NCBI RefSeq assembly: GCF_001423965.1 | Contig: NZ_LMPV01000001.1 | Span: 1 to 64,000 of the forward strand | DNA: 64,000 bases | Direction: 5' to 3' | From: Exiguobacterium sp. Leaf196 | Lineage (GTDB): Bacteria > Bacillota > Bacilli > Exiguobacteriales > Exiguobacteriaceae | Shown here: piece by piece, positions 22,200 through 55,190 of the stretch | How positions within the stretch are numbered: position 1 is the stretch's first letter | Layout of the letters: each line of letters opens with the position of its first letter | The notes under the pieces: model-generated | The model's database searches: none | Told to the model about the DNA's origin: nothing | The model's input: only the letters and a program-made list of their open reading frames with translations | Position numbers and translations under genes: made by a program

Positions 22200-22457
22200 G
22201 AATACAGTCGATGATGAAGAGAGTAACGGTTGATTTTCGTCAACTAGCGAATCAGGGAATGGTGGAAGCCTGAGGACGAACCGGTCGTGAAGCGCACTTC
22301 TGAGACGCTACCCGATTCCTGAAGGAAAAGGCGTAGCCGGGGGAACCCCGTTATCCCCGAACAAGGTGGGTGTCAAAAATGACACCAAGAAGAGTGGTAC
22401 CGCGGTCATTCCGTCTCTTTGCGCGTGGCGCAAGGGGCGTTTTTTATTGCCAAAAAT
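22200..22457 (+). promoter_or_regulatory. T-box leader (tRNA-Arg specific) of argS
   Basis: A stem I region with the AGTA loop-E half (about 22219-22222) is followed by GAA-G-CGC-A near 22289-22296, giving CGC (Arg) as the specifier at 22293-22295. The conserved T-box core GTGGTACCGCG lies at about 22394-22404. A terminator (CTTTGCGC/GCGCAAGG followed by TTTTTT) ends near 22447. Uncharged tRNA-Arg should stabilise the antiterminator and turn on argS. Confidence 0.92.
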
Positions 22458-42420: not shown

Positions 42421-43770
42421 TTAGACACGAGCTGATTGGCGCTCGCTCATTGCTTGTAGAGCTGCTTGGTTTAGTAAGTTCCACGGTTTGTTGTAGTGCG
42501 GTTGGAAGAAGAAATCGACGAAAGCGAGCTCTTCAAGTGTCATGTCATTTTGAATCGCGACAGAAAGTGTGTTCATTGCCTGTGTCAAATCAACTTTTGA
42601 GATGATTTGTGCACCGACGACACGATGTGTTGCCGTCTCGAAGACGAGCTTCAATTGGACGTCTTCTGCTGTTGGCATGAACTCTGGACGATACGCATCT
42701 GTAACTGTCGTGCTGCTCACTTCAAGTCCGAACAAGGGTGCCGCTTCTTCTGTCAAACCAGTCGACGCGATGTTCAAATCATATAAGCGAAGACCAGATG
42801 TGCCTTGTGTTCCTTGGTAACGAATCTTTGGCGCGAGTAAGTTTTTTCCGATGAGCGTACCCATCCGGACAGCATTCGTTGCGAGTGGAATATAGGCATG
42901 TGTCCGAGCTGGGTTGTAATAGACGGCACAGCTGTCACCAGCAGCAAAAATGTTCGGGTTGCTCGTCCGCATATAATCGTCAACGATGATGGCACCGTTC
43001 GGTAACATATCGACTTGTCCTTTTAAGAGTTCTGTGCTTGGGCGGAAACCGACACAGAGAATGACGAGATCCGTTTCAAATGTGCCTTTATCTGTAACGA
43101 CGTGTGTGACAGCACCGTTTTCTCCTTTGAAGCTTTGGACGGTTTGTCCAAGTTCAAGACGAATGCCGCGATCTGTTAATTCGCGTTCAATGACGTCAGT
43201 GAACGAGCGGTCGAGGTATTTGTTGAGAATGCGATCTGCACTGTCGATGAACGTAACATCTTTTCCGTAGGCTTCAAACGCTTCGACGAGTTCAGCACCG
43301 ATATAGCCTGCACCAACGACCGTGATCCGCTCTGCATCTGATGCTTTTTCGATGATTGTTTGAGCGTGGTGATAGTTTTTACAGAGCTCGATTTGATTCA
43401 ACTCAATACCAGGAAGCATTGGAATGATTGGCCAAGATCCAGTCGTCATGATGAGTTTATCGTACGTATCGTGAACGACTTCACCAGTCATGAGGTTTTT
43501 CGCAATGATCGTTTGACGTTCACTATCGATTTCAAGTACATCATGTTTCAGACGCATCTCGGCTCCGAGCTCAGCAAGTTCACTTGGTGACGAGTAAAAT
43601 AGCGATTCCGCGTGCTTGACGACACCACCGACGTGAAGTGCGATCCCACAAGAGAGAAACGATACATTGTCATTCCGCTCATAAACGGTGATCTTGACAT
43701 CTTGTTGTGAAGCGAGTTCTTTGACTGCTGCTGTTCCTGCGTGTGTACATCCGATGACTGCTACTTTCAT
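42421..43770 (-). CDS. nox: water-forming NADH oxidase (FAD-dependent)
   Basis: A 449-residue flavoprotein that reduces O2 to water with NADH. The N-terminal FAD motif (MKVAVIGCTHAGTAAVKEL), the redox-active cysteine in NVSFLSCGIALHVGG (C41) and the NAD motif VVGAGYIGAELVEAF follow each other as in streptococcal and lactobacillal Nox. The C-terminal dimerisation domain ends in FFFQPHYNKPWN. A CoA-disulfide reductase could look alike, but the cysteine region and length fit Nox better. AAAGGAG precedes the ATG. The palindromes upstream point to redox or oxygen control. Confidence 0.9.
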   Translation of the reverse strand: MKVAVIGCTHAGTAAVKELASQQDVKITVYERNDNVSFLSCGIALHVGGVVKHAESLFYSSPSELAELGAEMRLKHDVLEIDSERQTIIAKNLMTGEVVHDTYDKLIMTTGSWPIIPMLPGIELNQIELCKNYHHAQTIIEKASDAERITVVGAGYIGAELVEAFEAYGKDVTFIDSADRILNKYLDRSFTDVIERELTDRGIRLELGQTVQSFKGENGAVTHVVTDKGTFETDLVILCVGFRPSTELLKGQVDMLPNGAIIVDDYMRTSNPNIFAAGDSCAVYYNPARTHAYIPLATNAVRMGTLIGKNLLAPKIRYQGTQGTSGLRLYDLNIASTGLTEEAAPLFGLEVSSTTVTDAYRPEFMPTAEDVQLKLVFETATHRVVGAQIISKVDLTQAMNTLSVAIQNDMTLEELAFVDFFFQPHYNKPWNLLNQAALQAMSERQSARV

Positions 43771-43968: not shown

Positions 43969-44181
43969 TATAATGAAAATAGATTTTTAATGAAGGGGTG
44001 GAAACCGATGGATACCGAGAGGACCAATCATCTATTCAGCTTACCTGATTTTTAGCAGTACCGGTCAAGACGAACAAGACGGTAATGGCTTATAAAAATC
44101 AGGGAGAGCGAAAATAGATGAATACCCAAACGGGACGTATAAAACCTCTCCCACGATGTAAATGGGAGAGGACAATAAAAC
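43969..44181 (+). promoter_or_regulatory. attenuator-like leader of the YitT-family gene
   Basis: TATAAT at 43969-43974 suggests transcription from about 43981. The RNA can form nested pairings: 44028-44036 with 44113-44121 (9 bp), 44044-44054 with 44093-44103 (11 bp) and 44059-44066 with 44078-44084. A separate 8-bp hairpin (44145-44152 with 44164-44171) hides the ribosome binding site GGGAGAGG of yitT. The upstream GGGAGAG (44102-44108) can compete for the same CTCTCCC. Two small ORFs with their own ribosome binding sites lie in it. It matches no riboswitch class that I recognise. Confidence 0.6.
44008..44055 (+). CDS. predicted 15-residue leader peptide (uORF1)
   Basis: Read directly: MDTERTNHLFSLPDF, with AAGGGGTGG 6 bases before the ATG. 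Its last codons and stop (44044-44055) form one arm of the 11-bp leader stem, the usual layout of a translation attenuator in which a stalled or terminating ribosome opens a downstream start. The peptide is too short to judge by homology here. Confidence 0.5.
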   Translation: MDTERTNHLFSLPDF

Positions 44182-44249
44182 ATGAAACGAATCGCAACCA
44201 TCTTAACCGGAACGCTGATCATGGCGTTCGGTTACTACACATTGAATGA
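44118..44249 (+). CDS. predicted 43-residue uORF2 overlapping yitT
   Basis: Starts at ATG 44118 with GGGAGAG 9 bases upstream and begins MNTQTGRIKPLPRCKWERT. It runs through the hairpin that hides the yitT ribosome binding site and past the yitT start in another frame. Its ATG lies in the 9-bp stem. Translation would melt the hairpin. It may be a coupling device, not a useful peptide. Confidence 0.35.
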   Translation: MNTQTGRIKPLPRCKWERTIKHETNRNHLNRNADHGVRLLHIE

Positions 44250-44799
44250 ACAGTTCGGATTAGCAGAAGGCGGCTTTATTGGGTTATCGTTGCTCGGTCG
44301 ATACTTTTTTGATATCAATCCTTCGATCTCGATGATCGTGTTCGATATTCCATTTTTCATTGGCGCTTTGTACTTCAAAGGAAAACGTTTCGTCAGCGAA
44401 GCGTTACTTTCAGCAGGTGCGTTATCACTCTTTTACGAGATGTGGCACCGACTTGATTTGTTCCACTTTCCAGAACAGGCTTGGCCAGCGACACTTATCG
44501 CAGCGATCGCTAGCGGAATCGTGACCGGATATGGTCTCGGACTTGTTTTGAAAAGTGGAGCAGCGACAGGTGGAGACGATCTACTGTCGATGGGACTCAG
44601 TAAACTGACAGGTCTATCGATCGGAACGATTTTGTTCGGACTCGACGCCATCGTGTTAGTGATTTCACTTGTTTATCTGCCACTTAGCTTGACGTTATAC
44701 ACATTACTGGCCGTAGCGATCGCCGGTCGTGTTGTTGCTGTCATGACACGGGAGCCTATCATCGTACCGGCACCTGTCGTACAAAAAGTCACGCAGTGA
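44182..44799 (+). CDS. YitT-family membrane protein (DUF161, short form)
   Basis: A 205-residue membrane protein with about five helices. It shows the family glycine motifs AEGGFIGLSLLG and SGAATGGDDLLSMGLSKLTG, and ends without the C-terminal DUF2179 domain seen in full-length YitT (about 280 residues). That makes it a short YczE/YitT-like form. The function of the family is unknown. GGGAGAGG at 44164-44171 is the ribosome binding site and lies in a hairpin. The long structured leader implies tight translational control. Confidence 0.82.
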   Translation: MKRIATILTGTLIMAFGYYTLNEQFGLAEGGFIGLSLLGRYFFDINPSISMIVFDIPFFIGALYFKGKRFVSEALLSAGALSLFYEMWHRLDLFHFPEQAWPATLIAAIASGIVTGYGLGLVLKSGAATGGDDLLSMGLSKLTGLSIGTILFGLDAIVLVISLVYLPLSLTLYTLLAVAIAGRVVAVMTREPIIVPAPVVQKVTQ

Positions 44800-44826: not shown

Positions 44827-44859
44827 TATCGGATTCGACATCGTCGAGTCCGATTTTTC
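44827..44859 (+). terminator. terminator of the YitT-family gene
   Basis: ATCGGATTCGAC pairs with GTCGAGTCCGAT around ATC, followed by TTTT. Confidence 0.8.
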
Positions 44860-55028: not shown

Positions 55029-55190
55029 AAAAAAGACCCCTTCGCAAGAAAGAAGGAGGTCTTTATGAAATAAAGACGCTCTTCTTATCTCTCAAGCTTT
55101 CGCTTGCTGGATTTGGCACAGTACGAATCAAATCGTCCGCTGCCGAAACATCATTGGGCCAGTCCCTCCGTTTCTCGCGATAAAAAGAAG
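55029..55190 (-). promoter_or_regulatory. SAM-I (S-box) riboswitch
   Basis: The minus strand carries the S-box consensus: GGAGGGACTGGCCCAATGA, then CGGCAGC, CTGTGCCAAATCCAGCAAGC and GAGAGATAAGAAG. P1 is formed by 55179-55190 with 55081-55089. A terminator (AAAGACC...GGTCTTT followed by TTTTT) lies at 55029-55065. High SAM should stop transcription before the NhaC-family gene. Confidence 0.95.

Follow-up and report, generated by a model that had tools for sequence, protein, structure and literature searches.

A two-ORF leader with an amber stop upstream of yitT: a candidate translational attenuator in Exiguobacterium and other Bacilli

The yitT gene of Exiguobacterium sp. Leaf196 is preceded by a leader that contains two short open reading frames (uORF1 and uORF2) and nested hairpins, and we consider it probable that this leader acts as a translational attenuator: uORF1 would be its sensor and yitT its output. 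uORF1 has a conserved peptide end and closes with UAG followed by C, a stop that is invariant in six families. An attenuator of this kind had been proposed from the sequence of the Leaf196 leader (the original prediction), and computation supports it; the arrangement is wider than proposed, as it is present in five further families of Bacilli, and neither these families nor the invariant UAG-C stop formed part of that prediction.

Results

The window is the whole stretch of DNA that was analysed, 64,000 nucleotides from the start of contig NZ_LMPV01000001.1 (assembly GCF_001423965.1). The leader and its gene have the following features in it:

43969..43974, + strand: TATAAT, -10-like, candidate promoter of the leader (direct reading)
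43993..44001, + strand: uORF1 Shine-Dalgarno sequence (SD) AAGGGGTGG, ending 6 bases 5' of the uORF1 ATG
44008..44055, + strand: uORF1, leader peptide MDTERTNHLFSLPDF followed by the stop, proposed sensor (direct reading)
44053..44056, + strand: UAG stop of uORF1 and the C after it, proposed stall site (sequence comparison)
44028..44036, + strand: segment 1, outer 5' arm (uORF1 codons 7-10), 9 bp with 44113-44121
44044..44054, + strand: segment 1, inner 5' arm, 11 bp with 44093-44103
44093..44103, + strand: segment 2, inner 3' arm, partner of 44044-44054
44102..44108, + strand: uORF2 SD GGGAGAG, overlapping segment 2 (direct reading)
44113..44121, + strand: segment 2, outer 3' arm, covering the uORF2 ATG, partner of 44028-44036
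44118..44249, + strand: uORF2 (43 aa), proposed hairpin opener, overlapping the yitT start out of frame
44145..44152, + strand: segment 3, anti-SD CCTCTCCC, pairs with segment 4
44164..44171, + strand: segment 4, yitT SD GGGAGAGG, pairs with segment 3
44182..44799, + strand: yitT, 205-aa protein, Pfam PF02588 (YitT_membrane), 120.7 bits
44828..44859, + strand: terminator-like stem and T run 3' of yitT (by eye; not listed by the terminator scan)

A direct sequence check found every element of the original prediction to be correct base for base, and reading confirmed the SDs of both uORFs. The inner 5' arm of segment 1 runs through uORF1 codons 13-15 into the stop, of which it includes two bases, the first and second, and SD-like purine runs precede uORF1 in the leaders printed. 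The TATAAT is present in 17 of the 18 same-genus leaders (it is absent from L018), and a sigma-70 scan of the window listed no promoter at 43969-43974. Because the terminator scan of the window gave no + strand terminator between the promoter and yitT, the attenuation would be translational, and transcription attenuation was rejected for this leader. The yitT unit looks monocistronic because of the terminator-like stem and T run at 44828-44859. The scan also listed a terminator-like element on the - strand, namely the complement of the yitT SD hairpin (44145-44171) with TTTT after it. A gene for a pyridine nucleotide-disulphide oxidoreductase (by Pfam; 42421-43770, - strand) lies divergent from the leader and is not common to the 12 other yitT regions compared. 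The window also contains a T-box leader (22202-22421, +) and a SAM riboswitch (55082-55186, -), both at the Rfam gathering score.

By blastn, the leader DNA was found in 18/18 same-genus genomes (its own included), and in the second Exiguobacterium genus the match was limited to the yitT start (19/19 genomes). The leaders of 13 of these 19 genomes were read, and they have the same anatomy in different DNA: uORF1 encodes MDTER(T/A)WPLFQLPDF before the stop, a uORF2 is present, and the SD is covered by a CCTCTCCG...CGGGGAGG hairpin. Both uORFs are present in all 31 Exiguobacterium leaders read (L001-L030 and L115, from two GTDB genera), which excludes the absence in close relatives that would have spoken against the prediction. 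L031-L040 are repeat records of Exiguobacterium loci and were excluded from the codon, fold, helix, accessibility and best-register counts.

The uORF1 peptide has the form MDTER-xxx-LF-x-LPDF in L001-L030 and L115, and LFxLPDF stands directly before the stop in 17/17 unique Exiguobacterium DNAs, so that the peptide end is conserved. Pairwise codon differences over the 31 loci (17 unique DNAs) were 562 synonymous versus 292 non-synonymous. Within the first genus alone there is no synonymous excess (38 versus 39) because the changes lie mostly in codons 6-8 and 11, and codons 9, 10 and 12-15 keep their amino acid. The codons ACC GAG AGG (44014-44022) show no synonymous change in the 17 unique DNAs while other codons vary, and an extra RNA-level constraint on them is possible; judged by eye, their GAGAGG could pair with CCTCTC of segment 3.

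The uORF1 stop is TAG followed by C in 17/17 unique Exiguobacterium DNAs and in 28/28 unique DNAs from other families (45/45). Among sampled ORFs of at least 200 aa, TAG closes 4/145 in the genome of the window (TAGC, 0/145), 12/73 in genome G039 of family f4 (TAGC, 1/73) and 16/66 in genome G217 of f22, the family of Brevibacillus (TAGC, 8/66). Given this usage, the constant UAG-C is remarkable for Exiguobacterium and f4 but far less remarkable for f22. In the window alone, TAG closes 0/55 ORFs of at least 150 aa. In some of the families, base pairing in the RNA may be what keeps the C after the stop constant. Computation shows uORF1 and its UAG-C stop to be conserved.

In order to survey other families, a profile of the short YitT was searched in 398 sampled Bacilli genomes with an ortholog cut-off of >200 bits, which gave 69 orthologs outside Exiguobacterium (36 in f4, 28 in f22, 3 in f17, 1 in f28 and 1 in f12). 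In 69/69 of them a uORF1-like stretch with the same orientation precedes the profile match, at a distance of 152-270 nt. Where it was read out in these families, uORF1 ends in (I/V)WK(R/Q)(Y/F/C/H/Q)DLS(Y/D)(T/I) before the stop, with one exception, L042 (DSSYI), whose uORF1 reads MRPHRTIWKQYDSSYI with TAGC. The pattern WK(R/Q)xDLSx(T/I) precedes the stop in 28/28 unique other-family DNAs, a count that is partly circular because the expression used to select these DNAs itself included W(K/R/Q)..D(L/F)S. A BLAST search with a 21-aa peptide from f4 (IWKRYDLSYT type) is independent of that expression; it does not recover the Exiguobacterium peptide, and its matches in the 398 genomes with E up to 0.043 number 68, all of them before a YitT ortholog. 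This survey covers rows to E 0.12, where G264, G085 and G253 have matches (E 0.07-0.12) in genomes without a listed ortholog, plus two rows of G375 that are weak (E 0.40 and 0.42) yet readable as uORFs. The codon, fold, helix and accessibility counts do not include L042, which the picking expression missed; L055-L074 and L083 were read and stand outside the counts, as do L117-L146, which were left unread.

Over the last 11 uORF1 codons outside Exiguobacterium there are 1339 synonymous versus 720 non-synonymous pairwise differences. The uORF1 stop lies 118-172 nt from the yitT ATG in the leaders tabulated, and in most other-family leaders segment 1 starts directly 3' of the stop; therefore a terminating ribosome would cover it. 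In L110 (f17; 386-540 of the reverse-complemented locus) one yitT is preceded by two tandem uORF1 copies, MFPQSIWKRQDLSYT and MFPHFIWKRHDLSYT; each copy has its own SD-like run and closes with TAGC. According to the folds, uORF1 of other families (L110 and L111, for instance) has a further internal hairpin between upstream codons and the UGGAAAC of the Trp-Lys codons. The leader sequences outside uORF1 differ between families, and the two peptide types resemble each other weakly (L four positions before the stop and a mostly aromatic residue six before it); a common origin is possible, and convergence may also explain the likeness. In a tree of 17 YitT proteins, Exiguobacterium is far from the rest (100/100), f12 stands beside f28 (96/93), and two f17 rows have long branches. 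Our script printed no uORF upstream of the long YitT paralogs L113 (from the genome of the window) and L114, and neither type of uORF1 peptide was found upstream of the homologue L054 of a Clostridia MAG; a leader common to all YitT genes was rejected for this reason. Plasmids, phages and viral contigs gave no match to the peptide.

The uORF2 frame is open in L001-L030, at 61, 64 or 70 nt from the yitT ATG and always in the same frame relative to it. Codons 1-19 of uORF2 (14 loci) show 7 synonymous versus 151 non-synonymous differences, and uORF1 in the same loci 9 versus 18. This codon pattern suggests that uORF2 would have to be translated while its peptide would itself be unimportant, and as the peptide is unconserved, a second sensing stall on uORF2 is not indicated. 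Outside Exiguobacterium a candidate uORF2 was picked by script in 40/40 leaders. The uORF2 of the second genus (L019-L030) begins MEQMEP(R/Q)LRLR, with an R-x-R motif of the kind that resembles macrolide arrest motifs; the motif is not kept in the first genus.

The MFE fold of the window's leader contains all three helices and consists of a nested stem between the uORF1 end and the uORF2 start plus a separate hairpin over the yitT SD. The nested pairings of the original prediction (11 bp, 44044-44054 with 44093-44103; 9 bp, 44028-44036 with 44113-44121) are perfect and both belong to this fold, in which the proposed pairing of the yitT SD GGGAGAGG with CCTCTCCC is also present. For positions 43975 to 44260 the folding energy of the RNA is -84 kcal/mol, compared with a shuffle mean of -56.7 (z = -6.28; 0/200 dinucleotide shuffles as good). 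The divergent leaders L018 and L029 each fold independently into the same arrangement (z -5.21 and -4.40), and this agreement between predicted folds is stronger support for the stems than covariation.

When each of the 31 loci was taken in its best register, 252/279 cells of the 9-bp helix, 305/341 of the 11-bp helix and 248/248 of the SD hairpin were paired, and segment 3 pairs with segment 4 in 31/31 loci, each in its own register; this test leans towards pairing, as the arms were located with expressions composed after inspection of the alignment and the 11-bp partner was the best ungapped window. Uncompensated breaks, which would count against the stems, are present but in the minority: two pairs per nested helix in the second genus and one per nested helix in L018. 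One of the two 9-bp pairs lost in the second genus is also lost in L018; in 22/31 loci the 11-bp helix lacks its last pair. The original prediction had called for a look at compensatory changes in the three stems, and in the best register both partners of five pairs have changed. The 9-bp helix has one such pair (A-U to G-C), the SD hairpin has another (C-G to G-C), and the remaining three belong to the 11-bp helix. Those of the 1:2 stem, four in all, fall on third bases of uORF1 codons 9, 13, 14 and 15 and leave the amino acid unchanged.

A plain MAFFT alignment of 28 distinct sequences, used as a check without located arms, gave a weaker result. There 84.9% of the cells were paired versus 83.0% in shuffles, and sliding the partner by 1-3 columns lowered pairing to 46-57%. 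Four pairs showed a two-sided change (one of them in the 11-bp helix), a number reached by 81/500 shuffles, with 26 two-sided cells versus 10.6 in shuffles (0/500 as high). The covariation score was 0.169 versus 0.141 in shuffles (0/500), and a slide of +3 gives 0.163. Three changes do not depend on the register: the A-U to G-C of the 9-bp helix and two in L018, of which one (U-A to C-G) affects the 11-bp helix and the other (C-G to G-C) the hairpin. A small number of events, on two branches, accounts for the compensatory changes. Covariation moderately supports the Exiguobacterium stems, to a degree that depends on the alignment register.

Fold z-scores of 23 representatives ranged from -8.47 (L110) to -1.48 (L097); most folds are strong, and those of L097, L085 (-1.80) and L091 (-1.91) are not unusual. 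The helices 1:2, 2:3 and 3:4 were measured in 21 representatives versus 200 shuffles each, and outside Exiguobacterium they recur with unrelated sequences in most representatives. The 2:3 helix has 12-16 bp in L085, L088, L095, L101, L108, L109, L110 and L111, these long helices having different sequences in different families; elsewhere it can be short, with 5 bp in L104 and 6 bp in L091. Among the helices that did not beat their shuffles were 1:2 in L088 (36/200), 2:3 in L091 (29/200) and 3:4 in L092 (26/200) and L029 (47/200). The computation thus shows that the fold recurs and that the pairings are mutually exclusive in most representatives outside Exiguobacterium. In Exiguobacterium, the pairing of the uORF2 SD with CTCTCCC that had been proposed does exist but is short and not significant: the 2:3 helices of L001, L018 and L029 have 7, 9 and 6 bp, and 14/200, 11/200 and 71/200 shuffles do as well. 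This match may reflect only that segments 2 and 4 are both SDs.

We also modelled accessibility, by equilibrium folding with an assumed ribosome footprint, script-picked uORF2 candidates in other families and no shuffled control. A footprint on the uORF1 stop opened the uORF2 start window by at least 0.1 in 31/31 Exiguobacterium leaders and in 44/71 overall; in other families the modelled stall opened uORF2 in 13/40 and closed it in 3. The stall opened the yitT SD directly in 0/31 Exiguobacterium leaders and 12/71 overall. A ribosome on uORF2, at its best codon, opened the yitT SD by at least 0.2 in 31/31 Exiguobacterium leaders and 64/71 overall, although at such a codon it would open the hairpin of any RNA whose arm it covers. 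Outside Exiguobacterium the modelled yitT SD is only partly closed in several leaders, and the modelled switch is small in many. Of the two routes that the original prediction had left side by side, the modelling favours a relay in Exiguobacterium, in which uORF2 translation frees yitT, and does not favour a direct 2:3 switch; the competing pairing is nevertheless strong in several leaders of other families.

To our knowledge, YitT proteins are widespread and uncharacterised. The yitT product of the window has no DUF2179 match, its NCBIfam matches are far below the cut-off, no sequence relative was found in the PDB, and PADLOC, which covers phage defence and leaves drug resistance outside its scope, gave no match. 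When the window was compared with 12 other yitT regions, no gene except yitT was common to more than 3/13, and five neighbour groups were common to 2 or 3 of the 13. Among the matches listed, the ortholog is patchy in f12 (1/11 genomes) and f17 (3/19) and is kept in all 36 f4 genomes. YczE-type relatives have been suggested as metabolite transporters (PMC4944035). Furthermore, missense changes in MPN657, a YitT-family protein, have been reported in three macrolide-selected Mycoplasma pneumoniae mutants (PMC10240068); MPN657 is a longer protein of the family, and this is a lead and not evidence.

Discussion

If the leader is an attenuator, as we think probable, it could work as follows. By default, ribosomes would finish uORF1 fast, segments 1 and 2 (the uORF1 end and the uORF2 start region) would pair, and segment 3 would pair with segment 4, the yitT SD, so that yitT would be silent. 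A ribosome that lingers where uORF1 ends, UAG most likely occupying its A site, would cover segment 1. In Exiguobacterium this would free the uORF2 start, and a ribosome on uORF2 would then melt the 3:4 hairpin and allow yitT to be translated, as in a relay. In other families segment 2 may pair with segment 3 instead, in a helix of up to 16 bp, and so leave segment 4 free, following the logic of ermC. The inducer could be a compound that targets the ribosome or a metabolite. The stall, its site, the inducer and the output of the attenuator are inferred.

As to what uORF1 would sense, it is quite possible that it stalls only with an antibiotic in the exit tunnel or the peptidyl transferase centre and that YitT is a resistance or efflux factor comparable to those encoded by erm, msr and vmlR genes. 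The architecture matches that of ermA and ermC (PMC8274638), and the MsrDL leader is described as stalling at its stop codon with erythromycin (PMC10314930). The lack of any gene but yitT common to more than 3/13 regions, the patchy ortholog in f12 and f17 and the MPN657 missense changes under macrolide selection (PMC10240068), even if in a longer family protein, point in the same direction. However, all 69 genes behind the peptide in the sample are yitT orthologs, no plasmid or phage record matches the peptide, YitT has no match in the PDB or in PADLOC (phage defence), and the retention of yitT in all 36 listed f4 genomes is more like that of a housekeeping gene. It is also possible, more tentatively, that a natural ligand or limiting RF1 slows release at UAG, and that YitT moves or handles a related compound; such a reading follows the logic of TnaC or SpeFL. 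UAG-C is invariant in six families, although UAG closes 4/145 long ORFs sampled from the genome of the window; this invariance, the position of segment 1 directly after the stop in most other families, where a terminating ribosome would cover it, and the suggestion of YczE-type relatives as metabolite transporters (PMC4944035) agree with this reading. We infer the arrest at the stop, though, and in G217 TAG is common (16/66) and TAGC not rare (8/66), and the C after the stop may owe its constancy to RNA pairing in part of the families.

That uORF1 senses nothing, and merely ties yitT to translation in general or has a constitutive dampening effect on it, seems unlikely to us; the small modelled switch of many leaders would suit it, but a uORF that only has to be translated requires neither conservation of its peptide end nor an invariant stop, and the synonymous excess of the last 11 codons outside Exiguobacterium (1339 versus 720) speaks against it. 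A riboswitch binding a ligand, or an RNA binding a protein, with the ORFs as incidental passengers, is very improbable: the strong folds of most of the 23 representatives and the invariant ACC GAG AGG codons in 17 unique DNAs would fit, and they are outweighed by synonymous variation under a conserved peptide end, by sequences that differ between families outside uORF1 and by the lack of an Rfam match. Short ORFs and hairpins are common, and even so chance was rejected as the origin of these ORFs and stems, having next to no probability given their retention in every examined relative with an ortholog and the fold z-scores.

If the attenuator reading of the leader is right, several consequences follow. 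As the leader accompanies every ortholog examined, the function of YitT would become a reporter screen, in which the compound would be recognised as the agent that stalls uORF1. IWKRYDLSYT and LFxLPDF, the two peptide ends, look like new natural arrest sequences, and the amber stop, otherwise rare in Exiguobacterium, would be a test case for arrest at termination. A more far-reaching proposal, which we hold to be doubtful, is that these peptides form an arrest-peptide class, both new and old, that reads RF1 termination at UAG-C through a ligand or through RF1 activity, with a two-ORF relay that switches on YitT, a small membrane protein acting on the ligand. Were that true, sensing would be a joint task of the peptide and its stop codon, and uORF2 would serve as a purely mechanical hairpin opener. 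Moreover, a relay through a translated, unconserved uORF2 would bear on the roles of ermAL2 and ermBL2.

The original prediction had named the leader a candidate undescribed attenuator, and it still looks undescribed as far as Rfam and open-licence papers show: Rfam gave no match at the gathering score in the window's leader or in 20 leader loci, on which ground a described RNA family was rejected, and among the papers listed from the open-licence PMC literature, none describes the peptides or the leader by title or abstract start, YitT plus uORF included. Attenuators of the ermC type have four segments that pair as 1:2 and 3:4 or as 2:3, with the SD of the target in segment 4, and the yitT leader has candidate pairings of this scheme, with its SD in the same position. 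In the Exiguobacterium modelling, however, 2:3 does not free segment 4, so a ribosome on uORF2 would be needed there. The leader is similar to TnaC and SpeFL in a possible arrest at termination that is read out on the mRNA, but the control visible here acts on translation, and we know of no sequence relation between uORF1 and either of them.

In the case of ermA, the likeness is that two short ORFs stand in series before the target; in one of the two models reported for it, stalling at the first ORF activates the second, whose own stall frees the target start (PMC8274638). The target of ermA is an rRNA methylase, whereas here it is a YitT-family membrane protein, uORF1 is another peptide that ends in UAG-C, and the uORF2 peptide is unconserved. 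MsrDL is a precedent for arrest at a stop whose identity matters, and like uORF1 it is a short leader peptide with the stop as the probable A-site codon and a prevalent stop identity, but it mostly has UAA and a transcription terminator, in contrast to UAG-C and the lack of a terminator in the window's leader (PMC10314930 for MsrDL). For toiL, the uORF of E. coli topAI, a stalled ribosome has likewise been proposed to expose a sequestered ribosome-binding site; bacterium, peptide and target are different, and toiL is proposed to stall at different positions depending on the drug, whereas the invariant end of uORF1 suggests one (PMC12121999 for toiL). All in all, the kind of attenuator is already known, and the peptides, the target, the amber-stop signature and the division of labour between two ORFs appear to be new.
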